Source: Flammula alnicola
Lineage: Eukaryota; Basidiomycota; Agaricomycetes; Agaricales; Strophariaceae
Direction of reading: 5' to 3'
Assembly: GCA_015499995.1 (NCBI GenBank)
Contig: JADNRV010000270.1
Span: forward strand, 1-64,000
Length of the DNA: 64,000 bases
The notes beneath the pieces are model-generated. The model was not told the DNA's origin and made no database searches. It was given only the letters and a program-made list of their open reading frames with translations. This document shows, piece by piece, positions 10,023-59,203 of the stretch (the first letter of the stretch is position 1; each line of letters begins with the position of its first letter). The position numbers were made by a program, and so were the translations under genes.

Positions 10023-10293
10023 ATCTATGTAGCTCAGATCAAGAGGTAGAGGATGCGAGGTCGGGACTGTGGTCCCTCCACAAGTAAACATAGACTAAAC
10101 TACACGCCATCAACAGTCCCGTGGCATAGATATTTGTGTGATAGCTATACCAGGGTTTTTTGGGGGAAAGAACCGGGCCGAGGGTGCGCGCGCTTGTAAG
10201 AAGCCGCCGCCGCCCGCCCGTCTTTGATCTCGAGATGCACCGCTGGGCTGAGAACAAAACCTATTGGGTGGAAGCAATGAGTAAAAATACCCA
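10023..10293 (-). repeat. Split direct repeat B, outer copy (B2)
   Basis: 271 bp identical to 10610-10880 at an offset of 587 bp. It forms the 3' terminus of the element in its sense orientation. Confidence 0.93.
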
Positions 10294-10439
10294 AGTAACC
10301 AGCCCCAATGCTACTAATTCAGCAGTGCACATCGAGATAGGATGGACTAAATTGACACCAGGGAGAATAAATAAACCAATAAAAAGACCAGAGAAAACTG
10401 AAAACACAAGAAAGGCTTAAACCGGGAGTGGCGGGTGGG

Positions 10440-10611
10440 TGAAAACTTGAGCTTTCTTGGTGTGTGGGTTGTCTGAGCGGGCGACAAAGAGAGCGAGGAA
10501 ATTTGCCGTCGAAGTGAAGAACTTAGAATGGCAAATTTCACTTTCTCTTTTCGTCACATAGACATTATTCCTTTGTCACGCTCGTGACTCACTCTGACTT
10601 GGAATGGCAAT
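10440..10611 (-). repeat. Split direct repeat A, internal copy (A2)
   Basis: 172 bp identical to 15668-15839 at an offset of 5228 bp. It abuts the inner B copy at the TATGTAG core around 10613-10619. Confidence 0.93.
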
Positions 10612-10880
10612 CTATGTAGCTCAGATCAAGAGGTAGAGGATGCGAGGTCGGGACTGTGGTCCCTCCACAAGTAAACATAGACTAAACTACACGCCATCAA
10701 CAGTCCCGTGGCATAGATATTTGTGTGATAGCTATACCAGGGTTTTTTGGGGGAAAGAACCGGGCCGAGGGTGCGCGCGCTTGTAAGAAGCCGCCGCCGC
10801 CCGCCCGTCTTTGATCTCGAGATGCACCGCTGGGCTGAGAACAAAACCTATTGGGTGGAAGCAATGAGTAAAAATACCCA
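10610..10880 (-). repeat. Split direct repeat B, inner copy (B1)
   Basis: Second copy of the 271-bp repeat, directly downstream of the recombinase gene in the sense orientation of the element. Confidence 0.93.
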
Positions 10881-15667: not shown

Positions 15668-15839
15668 TGAAAACTTGAGCTTTCTTGGTGTGTGGGTTGT
15701 CTGAGCGGGCGACAAAGAGAGCGAGGAAATTTGCCGTCGAAGTGAAGAACTTAGAATGGCAAATTTCACTTTCTCTTTTCGTCACATAGACATTATTCCT
15801 TTGTCACGCTCGTGACTCACTCTGACTTGGAATGGCAAT
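15668..15839 (-). repeat. Split direct repeat A, 5' terminal copy (A1)
   Basis: 172 bp identical to 10440-10611. It forms the 5' end of the element in sense orientation and lies only 25 bp upstream of the gag ATG, so it may also carry the promoter. Confidence 0.92.
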
Positions 15840-15896
15840 ATATGTAGATCTTTTTAATCGGAGCTTGATTCAGAATTCGCACAGCCACCCCTCCTA

Positions 15897-16508
15897 TTAC
15901 GACTGGTCCACTTCAGATTTCGGTGTTATGGCTGCCCTCTCTCTGCCTTCAGTGCCCCTGGGTGGGACGTAGTCCTCCTCCCTGCGGTTCATTACCAACA
16001 CTTCAACACGTTGTCCTGGACGGACGTTCAAGACGGAAGGTGGCGCATGCCTAAAACAATGTCATTTCTGTTGGCAATGAGAGGATTGAGAAGACAGTAA
16101 TCTCCTTACCCAGCGTTTATTTCGGCCAGGATTCGCGCTTGGGCTGGATCGTCATATCGCCTCAATTCGCCATCCCCAAAATGGAATCCATCTCGCCAGA
16201 AGGTTAGGTGCCGTATGGCGATTTCTTCTGTGGAATGATAATAATAATTTCAGTTATTAAATAAGGGGATTTTGAAGATTGCGTACTTTCTTCGTCTTTT
16301 TCCGAATGCCAGCCTGCGGGTTTCTCTACGTCTGGGCCAGCTCTGCGAAGATCAAAATTGCATTAAAAACTAGATCATATAGCGCCTTGTCTCACTGAGT
16401 AGCAGCACGCCTCAAGAGATCTCCGACCATATTGCCCGCAGGAGTTGCACGTTCAGGATTATCAAGAGTGCGATCAACGTCCGTTGGTTTATTTCCACTG
16501 TCAGACAT
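15897..16508 (-). CDS. SEP-domain-only paralogue of the p47/Shp1 gene
   Basis: A shortened copy of the intact UBX/SEP gene at 24203-25731, in the opposite orientation. The ATG at 16508 opens [20 protein letters not shown], close to the parent start. The copy lacks the glycine-rich and acidic linker exons of the parent, keeps [13 protein letters not shown], and contains the full SEP core ([38 protein letters not shown]). It stops at EVDQS, exactly where the parent UBX domain begins. The frame stays open over about 145 residues and all three introns keep GT..AG ends, so it may still be a gene. The SEP domain binds p97/Cdc48 regions or trimerises p47; without UBX it would lack the main Cdc48 contact. 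The retrotransposon end lies 50-60 bp beyond the stop. Expression unknown. Confidence 0.75.
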
Positions 16509-17020: not shown

Positions 17021-17391
17021 TTAACACTGAGCGATTTGAATATAATTCGTACCAAGCGCGCTACGCTAAATAAAGATATTTCGTCGTTGGCCTCGATCAA
17101 CCTAAAAATAGATTTTTCAGCGTTAAGCAGGGATTCTGGTTTTCTGTGTATCATCCGCATTCCAGGTTCCCAAACATCTCAAGTTTTTGGAAGTAAATCC
17201 ACATACATTATTTTTGCTCTACTATATAGTTTTCTCTTCAATATTTCTACCCCACAGATGAGCCGAACACGATCAGAGATGCATGAAGGGAAGTAGGCGC
17301 TCGTCAGCATCATCTTACTGCGATTATTTACAGCTGGAATTTATACTTTCAAAGGACAACCTAGTACATACCGCCTGTGCGTTAGCCTTAT

Positions 17392-17422
17392 ATGGGTAAA
17401 ACGCGGTGTTGTGACCCTTCAA
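17392..17422 (+). promoter_or_regulatory. 31-bp block shared by two hydrophobin promoters, copy 1
   Basis: The 31 bases starting ATGGGTAAAACGCGGTG are identical to 53784-53814. This copy ends 197 bp before the former start codon of a hydrophobin pseudogene; the other ends 223 bp before an intact hydrophobin. Surrounding sequence is much less alike. Either a conserved promoter element or a leftover of gene duplication. Confidence 0.6.
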
Positions 17423-24202: not shown

Positions 24203-25731
24203 ATGTCTGATAGTGGAAATAACCCAACGGGTGTCGGTCGCACTCTTGGTGGTGATCCAGCAGAGCCCTTGCCGTCGAACTGGGCACATCCTTCAACGAC
24301 TCCAAGAGTTGGTCGCATCGGCGATTGGTCAAGTTCATCATCATCAGGGTGCGATATCATCTCCATTTACTACTTCTCTCATCGTTAACTAGGAACAATA
24401 GGGGAGATAGAAGTGGAGGAGGCAGGTTTGGTACCATATCTAGTTTGGGTGGTGGGAGTGGAGGCGGAGGCAGGCCACCCCCCGACGACGATGAGGACGA
24501 CGATGAGGACGAGAATAAAGAAGGAGAAAGTTGGTTTGCTGGCGGTGAAAGAAGGTTCGTGTTTATATTCGTTCCAGCTTGGGTTCTTGCTCATTTAAAT
24601 GCGAATTAGTGGCATTTCGATTGAAAATCCTGATCGACAACGTGCGATTCCTGGAGGCAATATGGTCAGAGATCTCTTGAGGCGTGCTGCACAGTGAGAT
24701 GTGGCGTTATATGATTTGGAACTTAGTCCAATTTTGATCTTCGCAGAGCTGGCCCACCCGTAGAGACACCAGCAAGGCCTTCTGGGGCGTTTACCGGAGG
24801 AGGACACACCCTGGGCAGCGACGAAGTCGAAAGCTCGTATATTCCTGATCCCTCAGCGGAAGAAGGGGAAGAAGGTATGTAGCCTTTTGCATTCTTTTGT
24901 TCTGTAACTAATTATAATTTTAAAGAAGAAACGGCTATACGTCATCTTACCATCTGGCGAGATGGATTCCAAGTTGAGGATGGCGAGTTGAGGCGATATG
25001 ACGACCCAGCTCAAGCGCAAATCCTCGCCGAAATAAATGCAGGGTACGCTAATATCTTCTCAATTTCTCGCATTGCCAACAGTAACACCCTTGTTTTAGA
25101 CATGCGCCACCTGCCATCTTGAATGTCCATGGAGGACAACATGTTGAATTGCGTGTAACGAAACGCACCAATGAGGACTATGTCCCACCTAAGGGCACGA
25201 AAGCCTTTGGAGGACAAGGACATCGGCTTGGAGCCGTTGTACCTGAGTTCTCGTCAGGCGGAATTGGAGCTGCTACAATGCCTGGTTCATTCCCTTCCGG
25301 CTCGGCCTCGACTCCGACTTCGCTGCCTGAAGGTAGAGAGAAGGCAGCTATAACACCGAAATTTGAAGTAGACCAGTCTCAGCCCACAACCAGTATCCAA
25401 ATCCGATTGGCAGATGGAACAAGGTTCGTCCCCGTGCCATATGGGATAGGCAATTTTGCGCTGACAGAACTTCAGGATGGTCTGTCGCATGAACTTGACG
25501 CACACGGTTGGAGATATTAGAAACTTCATCAATGCGTTCGTGTTCCGTGTTTGTCCTCATTGTCGTCTTCTAATTCTCTTACTATCATATCTCCATAGGT
25601 CGCGACCAGAAAACGGTGCTCGCCCATATACTATTGGCACTACTTTCCCAAATCGTATTCTAGACGATGACAGTGCAACAATCCAGGGTGCTGGTTTGGT
25701 CAATAGTGTGGTGGTACAACGATGGTTGTGA
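24203..25731 (+). CDS. SHP1: p47/Shp1-like Cdc48 cofactor (SEP and UBX domains)
   Basis: Adaptor of the AAA ATPase Cdc48/p97, used in membrane fusion and ubiquitin-dependent processes. The start [17 protein letters not shown] is followed by a Ser/Gly-rich linker and an acidic run ([13 protein letters not shown]), then [12 protein letters not shown], the SEP domain ([20 protein letters not shown] through [10 protein letters not shown]) and the UBX domain ([36 protein letters not shown], ending VVVQRWL). The FPR turn usual in UBX reads FPN here, which may weaken the Cdc48 contact. No N-terminal UBA domain was seen, unlike yeast Shp1 and mammalian p47. Introns join in phase, for example ACA AG|G before MVCRM. 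TGA is at 25729-25731. Confidence 0.9.
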
Positions 25732-47193: not shown

Positions 47194-50100
47194 ATGGTAT
47201 CTTCACGTTTAGGCCTCCTTCTTTGGGTCTTTTTAATCCACTTGGCTGGAATCTATCTCTTCACCAGAGGATTTTTGTTGACGCGACTCTCTCTATCCGA
47301 CTTATCGACCTGCTCGAACGCAGATTGTGGGATACCTCCAACGCACAAACGCGCCATTCTCCTCATAATCGACTCCTTGCGATTCGACTTCATCACCCCA
47401 AACCCTCCAACACCTTTGTCTCCTTTTTATCACGGTGTATTGACGCTACCTCGGGAATTGACGGCGAAACATCCAAAACATTCGTTCATCTTCAATGCCT
47501 ACGCGGACCCTCCAACCACAACATTGCAGCGTATCAAGGGAATCACCACGGGCTCGTTGCCCACATTTGTTGACATGGGAAACAACTTTGGAGGTTCGTC
47601 CATCGCAGAGGATTCCATCTTGAGGCAGCTCAAGATGTCTGGGAAGAAAGTACGGTTCTTTGCTCTTATTTCATCTGGTACTTACCAAAATTTGAGGCAA
47701 GTTGGCGTTTATGGGCGATGATACATGGATGTCTGTCTTCCCTGGTACATTTGAACCCAACATGACTTTTCCGTATGACTCGTTCAACGTCGAAGACCTT
47801 CACACAGTCGACGAAGGTGTCATAAGACACCTCTTCCCTCTGCTGGAGGATCCATCCAAACCCTTTGACTTCCTAATAGGTCATTTCCTTGGTGTTGACC
47901 ATGTTGGTCACCGAGTTGGCCCGGACCATCCAAGCATGAAGGCGAAATTGCAGCAAATGAACGACGTGCTTAACCGCGTGGTGGAGCAAATGGACGAGGA
48001 CACACTTCTCGTCGTTCTGGGCGACCATGGAATGGACCGTTCGGGAGACCACGGAGGAGACGGTACCCTCGAAACGTCTTCTGGGATGTGGATTTATAGC
48101 AAGGGCGCCCCATTGACAGAAAGTTCGAACACGGTTCCCAGTGGTACCCTCCAGTTCAGGAAATTTCCGGGATGTGACATCCGCCATCGATCCATCCAGC
48201 AAATTGACATCCTTCCAACGATGTCTCTCCTTCTCGGGATGCCCATACCCTACAACAATCTCGGAACAGTCATTCCTGAGCTGTTTTGGCGCGACCCCAA
48301 TGGCCAGACGCTCGAGAAAGCACTCCAAATCAACGCTGCCCAGGTTATGGCGTACCTCGACACCTATCGTTCCAGTCCGTCCGGAGGCGAGCTGGACGAA
48401 GCTTGGAACAACATCCAAGCTGCATGGAGTGCCACCCTGGTTGGTTTGACCAGAGATGTCAAACTGGTGACGCTCATGAACTTCAACCGTGTTGCTCTTG
48501 CGGCATGTCGTGCAATGTGGGCGCAATTCAATCCTCTACTCATGGCCTTGGGACTCTCGCTTCTGAGTATGAGTCTCTGTGCAGCATGGTCCTTTATTCG
48601 GGCTTCTCTGCCTCGAAAAACGGCTGGAACGATTGGTTGATCAGTCGTCTGTCAATCGCAGTCCAAGCTGGTATAGGAGGTACCGTTTTGGGTGTTTTCG
48701 CCTATCTCGTCCTCGGGAACTATATGCCAGGTGTCAACGCCCTCGACTGTGCACTATTCGCAGCCTTTTTGGCATCGTCAATCGCTTTAATCGTATCTAC
48801 ACCCCCCGATATCACTTTGGAATCCCTCAAATCAACACCTGTGCTCCTTATAATCCACGCCATTGCATTCTTATCGAATTCTTTCACTTTCTGGGAAGAC
48901 AGGGTTGTTCCCTTTCTTCTTATCTCTTCCATCATCCCATATGTTCTTACTGGATTCACCGCCCCAAATACACGACTCCGGTACCGCATCTTAGGGTTCT
49001 CCCTCCTTTTCGCGATCTGCGTTCGCCTCATTTCGATCAGCTCAATCTGCAGAGAGGAACAACAACCGTATTGCCACGTCACTTTCTTCGCCTCTTCCTC
49101 ATTGCCGTCGCCGCCTTTGCCAGTTGTGTATCTCGCCATTCCTACTGCCTTGTTATTGCCTTACGACATCAAAAGATTCTTACGAATCACGCGTTCGGAT
49201 AATGGTGTCACCACTTATTTCCTTCCCTTCATGCTTGCTCCGCCTCTCGTTGGTGGATCGGTGTATTGGATTATGGAATGGGCCGATTCTGCTTCTGTTT
49301 TTGGCGATGGATGGACGAGTGCGTTGAGGGTAGGAAGGACCTTGGTCGCCAGGATGGCGTTTGGGTGGGTCATTCTTGGAGGTGGCACGTTATGGTGGCT
49401 GGTGCCCTTATGCCTGAACGTCGAGGTCAGCGAGCAGGGCGAAAAGCGGCAGGTCCAGGTCCTGGGATATGCCAATGCGTTTGGCGCCCCGTATCTTCTA
49501 TTCTGGTCGACTTCCCTCTGCCTTGTCTATATCTGCACGCAGCTTACCGGACAGTTGGTGCTCGCCCTCGCCACGGTGGCCTTGATAGCCTTTTTGGAGG
49601 TGTTGGATAGCGTTCGTGACGTCAAAGGCATCGAGGCGGCGTTCACGACCGCCACGCCTTCTGCTGTTCTTGACCCCACCGCATCGTCCAGTTTATCTCC
49701 ACCCATCCAATTTGCCGACATCGTGCCTATCTCTTTGCTTGGCCTCCATACGTTCTATGGGACGGGTCACCAGTCGACTATCTCCTCGCTGCAGTGGAAG
49801 TCGGCGTTCCTGTTGACACCGACTGCCACATATCCGTGGTCGGTGGTAACGGTCGTGCTCAATTCGGTTGGCCCGATCTTTTTGCTGGCGCTCGCGGCGC
49901 CCCTGGCTGCGCTCTGGAACCGTCCGCCCTTGCCTAAGAGCAAGGACCATCCGGAGAGTGATATGCAGGTGAAGGGCGAGAGCACATTGGCGGCGTTGGG
50001 GGTGATGATTTATTATTCGGCCTTGCTCCTCGGCACGTCGGTTAGCGCTGCGATTCTGAGGCGACATCTTATGGTGTGGAAGGTTTTCGCGCCGCGGTTT

Positions 50101-50208
50101 ATGGCTGCTGTGCTGGAGCTTTTGGCAGTGGATGTGGCGGTTCTGATTGGGGTGGGTGTTGGGGTGGAGAGGGTGTCGCGAAGAGTGTCGAGGATGTTTA
50201 AAGGCTAG
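47194..50208 (+). CDS. GPI13: GPI13 / PIG-O: GPI ethanolamine-phosphate transferase 3
   Basis: ER membrane enzyme that adds ethanolamine phosphate to the third mannose of the GPI anchor precursor. One N-terminal membrane anchor (LLLWVFLIHLAGIYLFTRGF), then the alkaline-phosphatase-like lumenal domain: RAILLIIDSLRFDF, DPPTTTLQRIKGITTGSLPT with the nucleophile Thr, LAFMGDDTWMSVFP, SFNVEDLHTVD, HFLGVDHVGHRVGPDHP and VLGDHGMDRSGDHGGD. The metal ligands Asp and His are all visible. Many C-terminal transmembrane segments follow to RVSRMFKG. A 52-bp intron near 47650-47702 joins KK|LAFMGDD. Near 48589-48645 the frame changes; either a 56-bp intron (GTCCTT...GATCAG, a weak donor) or a one-base error. 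Otherwise full length, about 950 residues. Confidence 0.92.
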
Positions 50209-50993
50209 TCCACTTCACACTTTTGGCTTATTACCACAAGCTGACATCGCGGCGTCCAGGTGTATAAATATTATTCATTCATCTCACAAGAATCTAGACC
50301 TTCCTGCATTTATTAAAATTACAACGGACGTAACCTAATCGTCCTCCCTCGTTCACATTACTGGAAGACGTCGAGTAACAGTCAAGTAAAACAGATCCAT
50401 GGTCCAGCCGGATCGAATATTAAGCTTTCAGGCCGACGGGTTACTTTCGCCCGCCTATTTCTGACACCCAACGAATGATGATGCTCAATCGTCCAATGCA
50501 TACCTGTCAGGATCTATGCGTGAGTTTAGTTGGAGTCTAGGTTGGAAGGCTAAATAGATCTTGCTGCAAGTAAACTTGAGCGCAGCCTTGTGCAGCTTAC
50601 AGCTGTTCGGCACTACAATACACGGAAAAGAGCCTGGAAAATGTGATGGGCTGTCGATGCCAGTGGGCGCTTATTTAATGTAATAATACTGAAGTGGCAG
50701 GATGCCGATCACGGAACCCATATGTACACTGCACATGAAAGCCTAGGGGCCTTTTATCAATTCGTAATAGCAGTCTTTTTGGAATTAAAGGTCAAACAAG
50801 GACATCAATAAAAATTCGTTGGCGAGACGCTTGAATACATGTCCTCCTAATTTGAGCGTCGGAAAAACAAAATCCAAAACCCATAAACAACCTGAACCAA
50901 AACCTCCCACACGTTCTATCTTTCACCATTGATCCTTTCTCGGTCCCCCACGAATGTCGAAAGAAAGGCCAACGACACCCACGTCGCGGGCAT
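50209..50993. other. Convergent intergenic region GPI13 / hydrophobin
   Basis: About 785 bp between convergent 3' ends. Short minus-strand open frames show no family features. No gene called. Confidence 0.4.
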
Positions 50994-51429
50994 TTAAGCG
51001 CCGACGGTAATAGGCGAGCAGTTAATTCCAACAAGTTGGTCTAGAAGTTTTAGTCAGATCAAAAAAGATCGAAGAAATCTGCTTAGTTAAACATACTAAA
51101 GAAGTTCTTCTCGCAGCAGACGGGCGTCGAGGCGCTATTAAATCCTAATCAGTATGTAACCAAGAAATGAAAGTCATGAATACGACATACCAGTTAGCGC
51201 CGGTACCAGCGCCAATGGCAGTGATTGGGTTGCACTGGAGACCGACCTGGCCAGAAATTGCGGAAACGGCGACGCCAACGAGCGATGCAATCCCTGTGAC
51301 ATCGTATGTGCCGGGCGCCTGAATTGTTTGGCAGCACTGAACGGGACCGGTGTTGCAGCTGTTATCCAAGGCGGAGACGGAGAGAGCGCCGAGGGCAACG
51401 ACGAAGACAGTGGTAATTTTGGAGAACAT
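50994..51429 (-). CDS. Class I hydrophobin (intact, left member of divergent pair)
   Basis: Small secreted protein that self-assembles into amphipathic films on hyphae and fruiting bodies. Signal peptide MFSKITTVFVVALGALSVSA, then all eight cysteines in the hydrophobin order C-CC-C-C-CC-C: NSCNTGPVQCC, GLQCNPITAIG, NCASTPVCCEKNF, GINCSPITVGA. Three exons with in-phase joins (AACTG|...|CGCC and TTTA|GTATGT...CTTCTAG|ACCAAC), about 107 residues. A TATA box lies at 51506-51511. Divergently arranged with the hydrophobin at 54038, the palindrome lying between. No lesions. Confidence 0.95.
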
Positions 51430-51505
51430 ATTAACGGTTGTCTGGTAGGTGTTTTGGTAGAGAGTATGGTCGAACTGAAGTTTGACGGAGACACCATCTC
51501 CAGCT

Positions 51506-51511
51506 TTTATA
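51506..51511 (-). promoter_or_regulatory. TATA box of the left intact hydrophobin
   Basis: TATAAA on the minus strand (CCAGTATAAAAGCTGG), 76 bp upstream of the ATG at 51429 and 77 bp from the palindrome border. Confidence 0.65.
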
Positions 51512-51588
51512 CTGGGGTAGCCTGCAGGATTTGGTCATGCATTTATTTGGGATATTCCGTCCGTCCGAGTGCAAGAAAATTCTATTCG

Positions 51589-53612
51589 GCTACACAGCCA
51601 ATGGTTCACGTGCAGGTCACCCGTAGGCCGTGCAACTTGCAGGTGACCTGTCAGCTAGCCTGTAAGCAGAGCGTAAATTGACCTACAAGTTTCTCGTGTA
51701 TTTAAACCACTGGTTGCCAGCAAACACCGCCAGCACATCACCTACGTACTGTGCTTGTACATATCTTGTATATCTGCTTGTACTCTGCCTACAGACTGCC
51801 GTTCCCATGCACGGCTAGCTCCGGGCAGCGCGTCGCTTGTGGACTTAGTGAGAAATTTCGGCCTCCACATCACGCTGTGACTGCCAGCAAACTTGTCCTC
51901 TCCCTCCATGTTGAACTTCAACCAACGCGCAAGTCCTTCGGTTCTGACTCCCTCCTCCCCCTCGCTTCCCGCTGCCCATCCTTCCTTCCTCCCTTGTGCT
52001 TGAGTAGCCCTCAGCCTCCTCTTCTGACCTCCAATGGTATCATTTTTGGCCCCAAGGAGTCAGCACAAGCTTGACTCGGAAGACCTTCAATTTTATGGTC
52101 ATCAAAGACATCCCCCCAGTGTAAGTTCTTTCATTACCCCTGTTCATGATAGATAGAGGTCTCATCATCCTTCCGTAGACATGCTTTCAAGCAATGGCGA
52201 GAGGTTATTCTCAAACGGCGCCACGTCACGATGCCGCCTTGACCCGGTTTGATTTATCTTCGATGGAAGTTCCTAGTCTTGCCATATCTATATTACATTA
52301 TGTCCCTGTCGCTATTTCCCTCCTGTTCTCGTGGTACATACGCCCTACAGGTGCAATAAATATTGAATTTAAGCACATTTTCGTGAATAGACCAGGATTA
52401 TGGTCTCGGAGAGTTTACCAAATGCGGTATAGTGCGTACTAATCGACCTTCAAGCTGCCCGCAGGCTGTTAGCCGAGATCGCAGGCAGCCTATGCTCAGT
52501 GACCGTCAGCCGACTGAGATTTAAATACGTGAGTTGCTTCCAGATCAAACTGTTGGTAACCTTTAGGCTGGCCCTCAGTCTGCTTGCACCGTGAATTTCC
52601 CGCAGGCGACGGTGCAAGCAGACTGAGGGCCAGCCTAAAGGTTACCAACAGTTTGATCTGGAAGCAACTCACGTATTTAAATCTCAGTCGGCTGACGGTC
52701 ACTGAGCATAGGCTGCCTGCGATCTCGGCTAACAGCCTGCGGGCAGCTTGAAGGTCGATTAGTACGCACTATACCGCATTTGGTAAACTCTCCGAGACCA
52801 TAATCCTGGTCTATTCACGAAAATGTGCTTAAATTCAATATTTATTGCACCTGTAGGGCGTATGTACCACGAGAACAGGAGGGAAATAGCGACAGGGACA
52901 TAATGTAATATAGATATGGCAAGACTAGGAACTTCCATCGAAGATAAATCAAACCGGGTCAAGGCGGCATCGTGACGTGGCGCCGTTTGAGAATAACCTC
53001 TCGCCATTGCTTGAAAGCATGTCTACGGAAGGATGATGAGACCTCTATCTATCATGAACAGGGGTAATGAAAGAACTTACACTGGGGGGATGTCTTTGAT
53101 GACCATAAAATTGAAGGTCTTCCGAGTCAAGCTTGTGCTGACTCCTTGGGGCCAAAAATGATACCATTGGAGGTCAGAAGAGGAGGCTGAGGGCTACTCA
53201 AGCACAAGGGAGGAAGGAAGGATGGGCAGCGGGAAGCGAGGGGGAGGAGGGAGTCAGAACCGAAGGACTTGCGCGTTGGTTGAAGTTCAACATGGAGGGA
53301 GAGGACAAGTTTGCTGGCAGTCACAGCGTGATGTGGAGGCCGAAATTTCTCACTAAGTCCACAAGCGACGCGCTGCCCGGAGCTAGCCGTGCATGGGAAC
53401 GGCAGTCTGTAGGCAGAGTACAAGCAGATATACAAGATATGTACAAGCACAGTACGTAGGTGATGTGCTGGCGGTGTTTGCTGGCAACCAGTGGTTTAAA
53501 TACACGAGAAACTTGTAGGTCAATTTACGCTCTGCTTACAGGCTAGCTGACAGGTCACCTGCAAGTTGCACGGCCTACGGGTGACCTGCACGTGAACCAT
53601 TGGCTGTGTAGC
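51589..53612. repeat. Large perfect palindrome: two 1004-bp inverted arms, 16-bp spacer
   Basis: Arms 51589-52592 and 52609-53612; positions x and 105201-x are complementary. I checked base by base at the outer borders (mismatch at 51588/53613) and at the centre (mismatch at 52593/52608). Equal-coordinate mirrored open frames (51751-52074 with 53127-53450; 52194-52442 with 52759-53007) show there are no indels between. Each arm has GC-rich short repeats near its ends and a TATTTAAA box near each end (CGTGTATTTAAACC outer, CACGTATTTAAATC inner). Ends of one arm share CACG(G)TGCA. No transposase was recognised in the arms, and no target-site duplication flanks them. Candidates are a fold-back or non-autonomous element inserted as an inverted pair, an inverted duplication, or an assembly artefact. 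Confidence 0.92.
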
Positions 53613-53783
53613 TGCGTCTCTTTTTCAAAAGGTTTGTCGTCAGAGTCGCTCCGAATAAAACACCCGAATATGGTAAGAAGCACGTCGGGAGCGTGGACAC
53701 TGGAGGTGCACGTCCGCATCAGCCAGCATCAGCCTAACGTGTTTTGTGATAGATCGAATCCACCACCTTTGCTTTAGCCAAAA

Positions 53784-53814
53784 ATGGGTAAAACGCGGTG
53801 TTGTGACCCTTCAA
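53784..53814 (+). promoter_or_regulatory. 31-bp block shared by two hydrophobin promoters, copy 2
   Basis: Identical to 17392-17422. It lies 123 bp upstream of the TATA box of the intact hydrophobin at 54038 and outside the palindrome. Confidence 0.6.
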
Positions 53815-53936
53815 TGTTGCAAAAACTTACCGAACTCAGACGGCCAACTGGCTCAACGACTCTGCCGAGAGCCTGTCCCGCGGATTGCCTTACGTTTCCT
53901 TTTTTTCAAGTCGGATTCCTACGGTCTCCTGAAAGG

Positions 53937-53942
53937 TATAAA
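53937..53942 (+). promoter_or_regulatory. TATA box of the right intact hydrophobin
   Basis: TATAAA in GAAAGGTATAAAAGC, 95 bp before the ATG at 54038. Confidence 0.65.
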
Positions 53943-54037
53943 AGCATATCCCACTTGCTCCAGTTCCTCAGTCGAACATCTTTCGTTCACTGTTAAAACC
54001 CTATCTCACGCAAACAGTCTCCTCATCACACTCGAAA

Positions 54038-54501
54038 ATGTCCTCCAAGCTCGCTGCTGTTTTCGCCATTGCCCTTGGCGCGCTCTCTGCTTCCGCTATG
54101 GACTACAGCTGTAACAGCGGTCCCGTTCAATGCTGCGGCTCTCTTCAGGACTCCACCACCTACGATGTTACTTACATCGCCTCTCTCGTGGGTGTCGCAG
54201 TCTCTGCTGTCACCGGCCAAGTCGGTCTCCAGTGTAATCCTATCACTGTCATTGGCTCCGGTACTGGCGCTAACTGGTATGCAGTTCTCTTCCTAGTTTT
54301 TTTTTTTAACCGTATTAAATACTTACTTTAATTCTGATAGTGCCTCTGCTCCGGTTTGCTGCGAGAAGAACTTCTCGAGTAAGCATACTCTCGATTACTT
54401 ATTTCGCCTCCTTTTGTTTTTTAATATTTCATTGACCCTTCCTTGTTTTTTCAGACCAACTTGTCGGCATCAACTGCACTCCCATCACTGTTGGAGCTTA
54501 A
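54038..54501 (+). CDS. Class I hydrophobin (intact, right member of divergent pair)
   Basis: Secreted surface-active coat protein. Exons 54038-54276, 54341-54378 and 54455-54501 sum to 324 bp, 107 residues. Signal peptide MSSKLAAVFAIALGALSASA; eight cysteines in order: YSCNSGPVQCC, GLQCNPITVIG, CASAPVCCEKNFS, GINCTPITVGA. All introns have GT..AG ends (GTATGC, GTAAGC donors) and the phases agree. Very similar to the minus-strand hydrophobin at 50994-51429 and to pseudogene B at 17619. No lesions. Confidence 0.95.
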
Positions 54502-55950
54502 GTTTTAGTGCTTTATTTAGAGGGAGGAGATTAATTATCTAGCTTCCTCATGAGTTGTGGATATTAATTAATGCCATTTTCACACGTACTTTACGATTGT
54601 CTGACATACTATCTTGGATCAGTGAATCGTCAGTCACAGGCTCGTCGCATACGGCAACTTCGCAGCGTCGCTTGGAATGGGGGCTGGCGTGATTTAGCGT
54701 GACAAGAGCCGCGAAAAATTTCTCCTCAAGCAGCATCTTTTCCATATGAAAAACACCTTAGATAAAGTTTAAATTGTTTATAAGTAGATACTCTGTAAAT
54801 TTTGGGAGAAATCCCTGGAGTGGAACTTGAGAAATCCGGTGGTGATGCATTGATGATTCATTGGTCTTGATGAAGTGCTGATCCAAGATAGTATTTGAGA
54901 AAGATTATTCAAAGCCGTGTCGAGCTAAGCATTTTCATAAATTGAGTGTATACGTATTCCAGATCTCCAGAAACTTGGTACTAGCCGACTTTTATACTAC
55001 ATCTGGAAGTTGGATGTCCACGGGCGCTTATTATGTGACGTGGTGTACCGTCCGAGACTATATTCGCATATCTTGTCTTAGTACCGACGTCGTAGCTTGC
55101 ATTCTGAACTCAGGACATATACTGTCGGACGACGTTGAGAACAACTGGAAGAAGTTCTCCATCGGCCTCCCTGCGCAGCAGCAAGGATCAGGCCTCAAGT
55201 TCTAATTGTGGATGACCTTTTTTCGAGGCTGATGGTAAGTTTGTTTGTGGAAGTTTTTAGTAAAGAATTTGGCACAAGTGCTTTGCCAATACTTCGCTAG
55301 CCAGCGCAGGGATCTGGTGAAAGCGGGGTGGACGGGGCTGTAAATTAGGCTGGTCATGTGACGCATGTGCCGACTTACTGCAGAAATTTACCCAAGAAAT
55401 TTACAAACTTTTTCCAACTCTCTCAAGTTCCAACTTGAACGTCGTCGACCTCAATCTTTGTACGCTAAATCTTTACAATCTAAGGGCATATCCAACCTAT
55501 CATACTTTCGGCACTCGCTCTGCGTATTCTCATTGCATAACAAAGCAAATCTGATGACCCGCGCAAAATTTGCTCATAGACAGGCCAGGTCGAATCCAAA
55601 ATGTTGACCAGCTCCTGGCTATTAACGTTCGATCGATCGTATTTCTCTTTCTGCTAGCGTCAGTTCTTGACCACTGTCAGCATCTAGGACTTCAATTGTT
55701 TTCTCTTCGTGCAGCTGGCTTTCAAATGAGAATGGATGTTATCCTTATCATGTCGGTCAGCCTCTCAGCAATGTCACTATATAACTCTTGGGAAGAAATG
55801 GGCGGCCCTTAGTAGAGCGACCTCCGTCGTTCTCATTCCCGTTATCGTGATACCCTTTCTTTGCAGGTGCCCTATCAGGTCATTTATTAACGCTTTGCTT
55901 TATTTTTCCCCTCTCGACTTCGGTACCCATCATTCTCAACCACGACCAGC
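54502..55950. other. Intergenic region, 1.4 kb
   Basis: An open frame at 54942-55205 (plus) ends in WKKFSIGLPAQQQGSGLKF and could be a leftover exon, but no partner was found. Otherwise AT-rich with no gene recognised. Confidence 0.35.
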
Positions 55951-58220
55951 ATGATCAATATACGCACATTCTTTACCTCTATCCCGCAATTCTTTCATCT
56001 GCTATGGGCCTCAATCGTAGCGCTCTTCATTTTCCAAGAGAAGGAGGATCAACTTCCTGGTGATATTGAGGCTGCCATTCCAACTTCGAACGTCGTCGGG
56101 GGACTCGAGAAAGAAACAGGTATGTGTTCGGCCATTCCCTGCAATTCAATTAATGCTCATTTAATCCCATGAAGTGACAGAGCCCACCAAAGACGTCCAG
56201 TCGGATACTCGCTTCTTGGTTCCGCCTACGGCTGGATTCGTTGAAATAGACTTGAAGAATAATCGCAACATCAACTATGACCATCCCAGCCGTCGTCCTA
56301 GTCGACGAATCTCTGCAGTAGACCCTGTCAAATCTCGCATTGTCGACGCGGCATTGAAACAGGTTCAGGACAAAACCATCAGTGAATTCGTTTTCTTCCA
56401 GACGATGTCCCAGGGCTGACCAGTTCAATCCCTATAGATGTAATCAAGACTGTCGTTCTCACTCCTTGCACCGTAATTGCCATTCCTTGCAGTGCTAAGA
56501 TCGAGTACTACGACCCACGTACTGAAAATCGCGGTGTTCAATTTGGACTGATGAAAAACAGACCCAATTTCAAGAAACGGGCGGTTCAATTCGGTGAAAA
56601 TTGATTATTCGTTCTTATTGTCGTCCTTCTTTTTGACATTCATGTGTAGTTCTTCCTTCAATATTCATAGAGGAGATCTTAGATGTTCCTGCGAGGAAGC
56701 TCAAGATAACGAAGAAAGATAGAGAGTCCATTGCCGACCTCTTTGATTTATTTCCCCACCCTCCTACCCATGTCCCTCTCGTTCCACCGCCACCCGTCGC
56801 TATTCGGGACATTGCGGAGAATTCTACTAATTCTTTTCCAAGCCCTATCGGACTATGTCCCTCTCTTGTCGTCACCGACAACTCGACATATGCCTCCTAC
56901 GCTGAGAGTGTCTCGTCGCCTGACTCGTGCGCCTCCAATTCTGACGACACGGCCCAGACCTCACTTCCTAGCACCCCTGAATCCGCTATGAGCTCCTTCG
57001 CGACTTCCAAATCTGAGTTACCTGACGTTGGTCTTCATAATAATGCCCAGCTTTCCCCAGACACAACCATCGGGCTTCTGCCGTCTGGACAGACTATAGC
57101 TGATGATCAGATCCTCCGAAAGGCCGAATCTGCGGAGACCTTGCGAAATCCTCTTCTGATTAAAAATGCTCTTGATGTCGAGGACTACGCTATTCAAGGG
57201 ACCGTCGCGACTGTTAACAGTGCCGAAAGTTCTCTTCTGCCTGCTCAAGTCGTCGAGGGAGTCCGTGATCTCGTCCCTGAAAACTTCGTCGCCTCCTATA
57301 ATTCTGAAGACCTTGTCGAACGCTATCACAACGTTGCTGATGGCTCTAACAAAGCCGATCTTCAAAAAGGTGACATCTTCGATGGGACCGATTTGAAGGA
57401 GAAGGAAATCATCAAGGTTTCCCGGGCTGATGATATACGCGATATTCTGACGATGTCTCCAAGTGAAGACGCGGTTGTGGAATTTCTCCTCGTTCAACTG
57501 GAGACTTCTTTTGAACTTGACGAGAGGCGTTCGGACCCCCTTCCTTGGCTCGCAGACAAGAACGCCGTAGGCGAAGAGGTCTATGTTGCTCCAGATATCA
57601 AGGCTCATCTCGACAAACCGATTGCTCCTCTTCGAATTGTCAAAAAGAACAAGTTTCAACATCGTGGACAGGAGGAAGAGCGCGTGGCCAGCGGTAGTAG
57701 CTGGGAGAAATCTCTGGAGAAGGTCTTGAAAGCATTCAAAGAGGCCGAGGTCGAGGACTCGGATTTCCGTGACCTCTTCTATAGGGACTCTTCGTTCTTT
57801 TCTCAGAGTTCTCTTGTCAACAACTTGCGAGAACTCAAAGAAGAATCAAGCACCTCTTTCGAGGTATCTCGGGACGAGCGTCTGAAACGTTTTGACGAGA
57901 GCTTCGAGAGCGTTGAGAAGTCGGTTGAGGAGATTTTGTCGGCACTGGAGCTACTCCCAGATACCGTTGCCGTCAAGGCGGAGGACTCGGCCAGCATTTC
58001 TCTTTCCGGTAGAATGGTCATCAAGGATATTGACCCAGACGCTGTAAAGCCTGATTCAATGTCCAGTCACGATAGGATAGCTGTCAGAGATGATGACGAG
58101 GATGACGAGGACCCTTACACTTGGACGGCGGTTTCCAATGACGATGCGGACGATGAAGAGAACGAAAGCGAGGACGATCAGTGGAGTAATTTGTTCGAAC
58201 TGGATGCATACCGTTCATGA
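55951..58220 (+). CDS. Unrecognised acidic protein with N-terminal membrane segment
   Basis: No family recognised. The start MINIRTFFTSIPQFFHLLWA has one hydrophobic segment (FFHLLWASIVALFIF), a probable signal anchor. Exon 1 ends at GAAACAG|GTATGT near 56120. The next part (TEPTKDVQSDTRFLVPPTAG, then KSRIVDAALKQVQDKTISEF) is followed by a frame break near 56400; adding one C in TTCCAGACG restores FPDDVPGLTSSIPIDVIKTV and a conserved-looking stretch IEYYDPRTENRGVQF. An intron near 56596-56671 joins EEILDVPARKLKITKK. The last exon is 1550 bp, Ser/Asp/Glu-rich (WEKSLEKVLKAFKEAEVEDS; EKSVEEILSALELLP), with an acidic end (DDDEDDEDPYTWTAVSNDD) and the final DAYRS. About 700 residues. Function unknown. 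Confidence 0.6.
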
Positions 58221-59203
58221 TCGTCATCCAACGAACCCCCTGCTGGCGTCGCGTTCCTCTACTTTCGTGACCTTTTGAAGGGCTCCAGTGCGCGCTTTTC
58301 CAAACTATCCAACTTTCAGGGGATTCGAGCCCCAAAATCGTCCCGCCTTGCCTCCATTGTGATTAACGACTTTACGACTATCGGCACCTGTTACGATGTT
58401 TCTGATTTATTTTAACCCATTAGCCATTTTTCTTTTCATTGATTCCTGCTTCTTCGTTCGTTCATCATGCGCGTCGCTCTTTTATTATTATTATTATTAT
58501 TATTTATAAACCGTTCATTCCTTTCGTCTTCTTCTCTCTCATTCTTAAATTTATTTCCTCGTACAATTTCAGGACAATTCCCCAGCAAGACATTGATCCT
58601 GTGTCCCCAATTCAGCGCAATAACTTGAAGTAGGTTGAACTTTGAAGTATGGACATTGGAGTGACAGGGGCACGTGAGGGCTATTAATAGGCTGGATCGT
58701 GACCATCTGCTTTCAGCGATCAATCGATCACAACGCTTACCTCGGACCTTCCTCTTTCGTTTTTTTCGTGAGTTTACGTGATATTTATTCTGACTTTCAT
58801 GATTGATTCTGATTTAGATAAGTACGAGAGTTTGTTCATTCCACCCACGATATCGCCACGTCATGCCGAGTTCGATTCAAATGTGCAGCCCCCACTTGCA
58901 CGCGAAAAGAGAACAACGGATTGACCTTGAAGGGATGGCCTGCATAGGACAAACTTATTTGTCGTGCGTGATATACCCAATTCCTCATTTAATCGCATTA
59001 AAAGCCAACTATAAGCAGAATTTAAGTTTCTCGTACCCCGAATCTTTATTCACTTCCTGCTTCGGCTGCGGTTATGGCCGCTTTGTTTGAACAATGCCGC
59101 TTTGTCAGTGCGGGCGCTTAAGTTGACAGCTACCACGCGGTGATACATATGACTCGGTTCTAGAGCCATCTCTAACTTGAACCACCATCTAACTTGAACC
59201 ACA
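58221..59203. other. Intergenic region upstream of Argonaute, with ATT microsatellite
   Basis: About 980 bp. A TTA/ATT microsatellite of about seven units lies at 58482-58504. A short repeated leader, TAACTTGAACCACCA/TAACTTGAACCACAA, sits directly before the Argonaute ATG (59172-59202). No gene seen. Confidence 0.5.

Follow-up and report, generated by a model that had tools for sequence, protein, structure and literature searches.

Dimers and nested multimers of MITEs arise when these short non-autonomous elements land in or beside one another, and elements of the Tc1/mariner type duplicate a TA dinucleotide at their target. In maize, Mu killer is a rearranged DNA transposon in which two partial copies stand inverted beside a host gene; as described in PMC3440606, it contains transposase sequence and dominantly silences MuDR, an effect for which a hairpin is proposed and an antisense model is also offered. 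Alternative transposition, as presented in PMC3744419, comprises reactions between sister-chromatid or reversed ends (Ac/Ds) and hybrid element insertion (P), with target duplications at the junctions. Among fungal transposons, ESTA and PHISTA are reported in PMC12730594 to duplicate TA, and the same source gives CA...TG termini for most of the CMCT group, which contains ESTA. Here we analyze a 2-kb palindrome in a stretch of 64,000 nucleotides from Flammula alnicola (contig JADNRV010000270.1, positions 1 to 64,000; hereafter the window), which is probably an inverted pair of a young TA-targeting transposon, produced by two local insertions in opposite orientation and subsequent loss of the interval between them.

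A first-pass annotation, made from the letters of the window, had reported an exact palindrome with 1004-bp arms around a 16-bp spacer, and a mirrored comparison together with an independent inverted-repeat listing bears this out. Each arm is 1004 bp long (51589-52592 and 52609-53612), and one is the perfect reverse complement of the other; in the mirrored comparison, mismatches within 51589-53612 are confined to the spacer, and complementarity is lost immediately beyond both arm ends. An exact inverted repeat of 1 kb cannot be chance, and this one is built from a repeated mobile element. At the outer end of each arm, 2 bp (GC and GC) belong to the flanks and mirror each other by coincidence, because C710, a contig without the palindrome, has the same GGC-TA and TA-GCT; the repeated unit proper is therefore 1002 bp long.

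The left transposon copy (51591-52592, forward strand) comprises element positions 1-1002 and the right copy (52594-53610, reverse strand) positions 1-1017, both with the 5' terminal repeat facing outward. The last 39 bp of the element are missing from the left copy and the last 24 bp from the right, the 3' terminal repeat included in each case. Since the copies end at positions 1002 and 1017, the spacer consists of the 3' tail of the right copy plus one base: alignment with other copies identifies 52594-52608 (reverse strand) as element positions 1003-1017, present in the right copy only, and, set beside the full-length copy C139, whose 3' end is intact, position 52593 is left as a single filler base joining two eroded 3' ends. 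Inspected by eye, this inner junction has one filler base and no microhomology, as end joining leaves. At the outer edges lie two target dinucleotides, TA 1 on the left (51591-51592) and TA 2 on the right (53609-53610).

The suggestion that each arm is a mobile element holds: a search with one arm against the genome of the window (74.4 Mb in 861 contigs) returned at least 44 matches, both arms counted and some of them fragments of one interrupted copy. We aligned 22 other copies, leaving out 12 that are interrupted, truncated or fragmentary. The 5' start TACACAGCCAATGG is found in 21 of the 22, its first 14 bp being common, and the 3' end GTGTA likewise in 21 of 22. Other copies continue for about 39 bp past the inner end of the arm, to a 3' terminal repeat that, reversed, reads TACACAGGCAATGG or TACACGGTCAATGG and forms terminal inverted repeats with the 5' end; a full-length element of the arms' subfamily (C139, C412a) measures 1041 bp. 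A 26-bp pattern of the 5' end occurs at 31 places in the genome (backwards control, 0) and a 14-bp terminal pattern at 76 (backwards control, 1). The paired TATTTAAA boxes that the first-pass annotation had pointed out lie one near each end of a single element, in inverted orientation, as copy C139 illustrates. That annotation had also proposed looking for single copies with target duplications, and both are present: copies are dispersed, and at the one empty site examined the region C412:12400-13200 has one TA where C139 has the element and two TAs, evidence to which the TA edges in C710 can be added. The flanks of C139 and C412 are alike for about 470 bp to the left and about 125 bp to the right of this site, and the C412 region may be an allele or a paralogue of the C139 flanks. 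The element is thus a dispersed, TA-duplicating class II transposon of this genome with terminal inverted repeats.

The element is apparently non-autonomous. Of the open reading frames of at least 60 aa, two (107 and 82 aa) lie wholly inside the left arm, and as unspliced frames they gave no Pfam match; among the loci inspected we recognised neither a transposase nor a longer autonomous partner with the same ends, so that Tc1/mariner is one of the possible superfamilies. The family has three end variants, and 17 of the 76 places with the terminal pattern carry different ones. Three inspected regions, covering four of these 17, yielded no recognisable autonomous partner: two of the four places represent a single stretch present on two contigs, with no sign of the element in the 120 bases read, and the other two sit in a direct repeat. 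The inserts within four interrupted copies hold three open frames of at least 130 codons, and C190 carries a lone 3' end of the family.

Copies also meet one another elsewhere. On both C651 and C512 an inverted tail-to-tail pair of family members has one TA in common (L011, C651:2521-6614; L012, C512:147700-152336), and on C212 one copy abuts a second whose sequence breaks off at element position 759 and whose remainder was not found; these encounters may be counted in favour of the proposed origin. The first copy of the C512 pair is interrupted by another insertion of ~530 bp.

Set against the systems described above, the palindrome departs from MITE dimers and multimers in that its arms are identical and its centre is deleted. 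It resembles Mu killer, as far as the published account of that locus describes it, in that both outer ends derive from the same element end and two partial copies form an inverted duplication beside a host gene; unlike Mu killer, it contains no recognised transposase sequence and its neighbour genes run away from it. As in the alternative transposition treated in PMC3744419, ends of nearby or sister copies would cooperate to give deletions and inverted duplications, but the inner junction here looks like a product of end joining between eroded 3' ends rather than a transposon-end junction. The element duplicates TA as ESTA and PHISTA do and, once the TA is set apart, its termini read CACAG...CTGTG like those of most of the CMCT group (PMC12730594), although membership of CMCT or ESTA is only a lead that these termini suggest.

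Contig C710, of which 9000 of 15105 bases were compared, is colinear with positions 48328-58795 of the window at identities of 97.4% and 98.2%, gaps counted, and on these grounds we presume it to be the other haplotype. Gap-free mismatches between it and the window contig (C191) number 27 of 3219 in the left flank and 37 of 2985 in the right, or about 1%. At the site itself C710 lacks the palindrome: ...TTCGGCTA is followed by 596 bp and these in turn by TAGCTGCG.... Both window flanks end in TA in this contig, the two TAs standing 596 bp apart, and each outer edge of the palindrome is an intact 5' transposon end against one of them. We infer that the 596 bp are ancestral and were lost from the haplotype of the window; alternatively, C710 could carry a 596-bp insertion instead. 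A genome search with these 596 bp, which passes over simple repeats, found no second place, and the idea of a repeated element inserted in C710 was rejected on this single occurrence and on ends that, by eye, have no inverted repeat. The stretch (C710, handle L056, 3235-3830) is about 41% GC, and an 8-bp direct repeat, AATTCTAT, unexplained, was noticed by eye near both of its edges.

The arms differ from each other at 0 of 1002 bp, where about 10 differences would be expected had they been as old as the haplotype split, and the palindrome should therefore be recent in origin, unless its arms have been homogenised. From C139 the left arm differs at three positions and the right arm at four, all of them CpG to TpG, and three of these changes are common to both arms and identical. 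None of the 22 aligned copies shares the window's changes at element positions 405, 903 and 1007. BLAST comparison with all copies covering the positions concerned, 29 for each, some of which are alleles of one another and hence non-independent, gives 25 C, two gaps, one A and one T at position 405, the T belonging to L017 and not confirmed by the alignment; 28 C and one T at position 903, the latter in L017, an old decayed copy; and 15 T and 14 C at position 650, which is common variation. In the tree the two arms form one clade (support 0.97), joined by C139 and C412a (1.00). The three shared, identical changes argue that both arms most likely arose from a single, already altered copy, although CpG changes can recur, given that L017 also has T at position 903. 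The four changes from C139 are all C to T on one strand of the element, for which chance would give 1 in 8, and CpG to TpG on one strand would be suggestive of methylation of the parent copy.

The reading we prefer, of two insertions and an interval loss, can be set out as a series of steps. One copy would have been present at one of the two TAs; a sister copy, mobilised by a transposase, would then have inserted nearby at the other TA in the opposite orientation; breaks, most simply made by transposase, would have occurred at the facing 3' ends; and end joining would have removed the 596 bp together with 24-39 bp of each 3' end, giving rise to a perfect palindrome. In a variant, everything after the first step could have been one aberrant event, a one-ended insertion with joining of the two free 3' ends. 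Transposase action, the order of events and end joining are all reconstructed from the product. Two random inner breaks would both fall less than 40 bp from the 3' ends in roughly 0.15% of cases, (40/1041) squared, a figure that overstates the case since the palindrome was picked for its long arms; with inner breaks so near both 3' ends, breaks made by transposase would be the simple reason. The expected intermediate, in which 596 bp would separate two complete copies, was not observed, and the clustering of the four changes on one strand is not something that the two-insertion account predicts. Two other routes were considered. Had one copy simply landed in the terminal TA of another, the arrangement found at C651 and C512, the right flank should continue with the DNA beside TA 1, and since it does not, this route was rejected; fold-back priming at the small GC-rich near-palindrome of the 3' end was set aside, there being by eye no priming stem at the junction.

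The same one-strand clustering lends something to an improbable alternative, in which a palindromic dimer bounded by two 5' ends had formed elsewhere and then moved in as a unit; its source would be sister-chromatid fusion or the fold-back of an excised copy. Both outer ends are indeed the same 5' end, two such ends could serve as a transposon, and the four of four changes from C139 on one strand look as if both arms had been copied from a single strand, albeit with the 1 in 8 chance already given. If such a dimer had inserted at one TA, however, the 596 bp would be missing from the original site, and a further change, confined to one haplotype and with its edge exactly on that TA, would be needed; no other dimer with this centre occurs among the matches listed (at least 44), and the junction, by eye, has no complementarity for fold-back priming. 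The assembly must also be considered, since inverted repeats assemble poorly and the identity of the arms may owe something to polishing, so that a single real arm, or two misjoined copies, could underlie the structure. We hold such an artefact to be slightly less probable again: both outer edges fall exactly at a transposon end and TA, C710 contains matching flanks for either side in the correct order, the spacer contains 15 bp that are unique to the 3' tail of the right copy itself, and a hairpin error would duplicate the flank, which is not duplicated. The earlier argument that a simple assembly hairpin is unlikely, based on the differing outer flanks, is thereby reinforced.

That exact identity implies either a very recent origin or active gene conversion had also been put forward, and of this the arms being very recent or homogenised stands, while conversion is not needed, because the tree contains identical copies of the family from differently flanked loci (C526 and C155; C6 and C152). 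Close inverted repeats convert easily, and nothing observed contradicts conversion between the arms. Two older, differing insertions made alike in this way nevertheless constitute the least probable of the explanations weighed here, conversion being superfluous in view of those identical copies and the palindrome being absent from C710.

The palindrome separates two divergent hydrophobin genes whose intactness had been noted at the outset and is evident from their structure. Each has three exons and encodes 107 aa, the left one at 50994-51429 (reverse strand) and the right one at 54038-54501 (forward strand), and both point away from the palindrome; with two introns removed, the products have eight cysteines at matching positions and match PF01185 (8.4e-22 and 1.9e-20). 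The left hydrophobin is identical in the window and C710 alleles, and the right one matches a Flammula alnicola hydrophobin at all of its 107 aa. TATAAAA boxes located by eye lie outside the palindrome, at 51505-51511 (reverse strand) for the left gene and 53937-53943 (forward strand) for the right, and because both remain, the consequence for the genes is probably no more than replacement of the distal part of their shared upstream region (~600 bp) in one copy of the genome. A 53-bp stretch at 53762-53814 is 89% identical to 17370-17422, each lying upstream of one of two hydrophobin or hydrophobin-like genes, and is possibly a shared promoter element.

Domain matches for an Argonaute gene (ArgoN, PAZ, ArgoL2 and Piwi) begin in open frames from 59198 on, placing it 5.6 kb from the palindrome as the first-pass annotation had said. 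Its further proposal, that a transcript across the palindrome would be a substrate for the Argonaute pathway, is not supported: both hydrophobins are oriented away, so that read-through from them would miss the palindrome, and the Argonaute gene is simply nearby, distance being its sole link. We regard as very improbable a mushroom counterpart of Mu killer, in which promoters internal to the element would produce a hairpin, RNAi would silence the family in trans, and methylation would shift the expression of both hydrophobins in one nucleus of the dikaryon.

The locus offers a fresh palindrome whose parts are still legible: the element, two target sites, the probably deleted DNA and a palindrome-free haplotype. 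It constitutes a compact case of how cut-and-paste transposons build long palindromes in fungi, and provides a natural allele pair for asking whether such a hairpin changes how the hydrophobins are expressed or gives rise to small RNAs.

Other repeats occur in the window. Diverged inverted repeats (81-90%) at 16107-16453 and 24639-25046 flank two hydrophobin-like stretches, at about 17.6 and 23.4 kb, which resemble each other chiefly as direct repeats and hence do not represent a simple inverted duplication. The region 10023-10880 contains an exact 271-bp direct repeat whose copies are spaced 587 bp apart; a segment of 183 bp (10440-10622) recurs 5.2 kb on at 15668-15850 with 99% identity, these repeats being either another recent duplication or an element.
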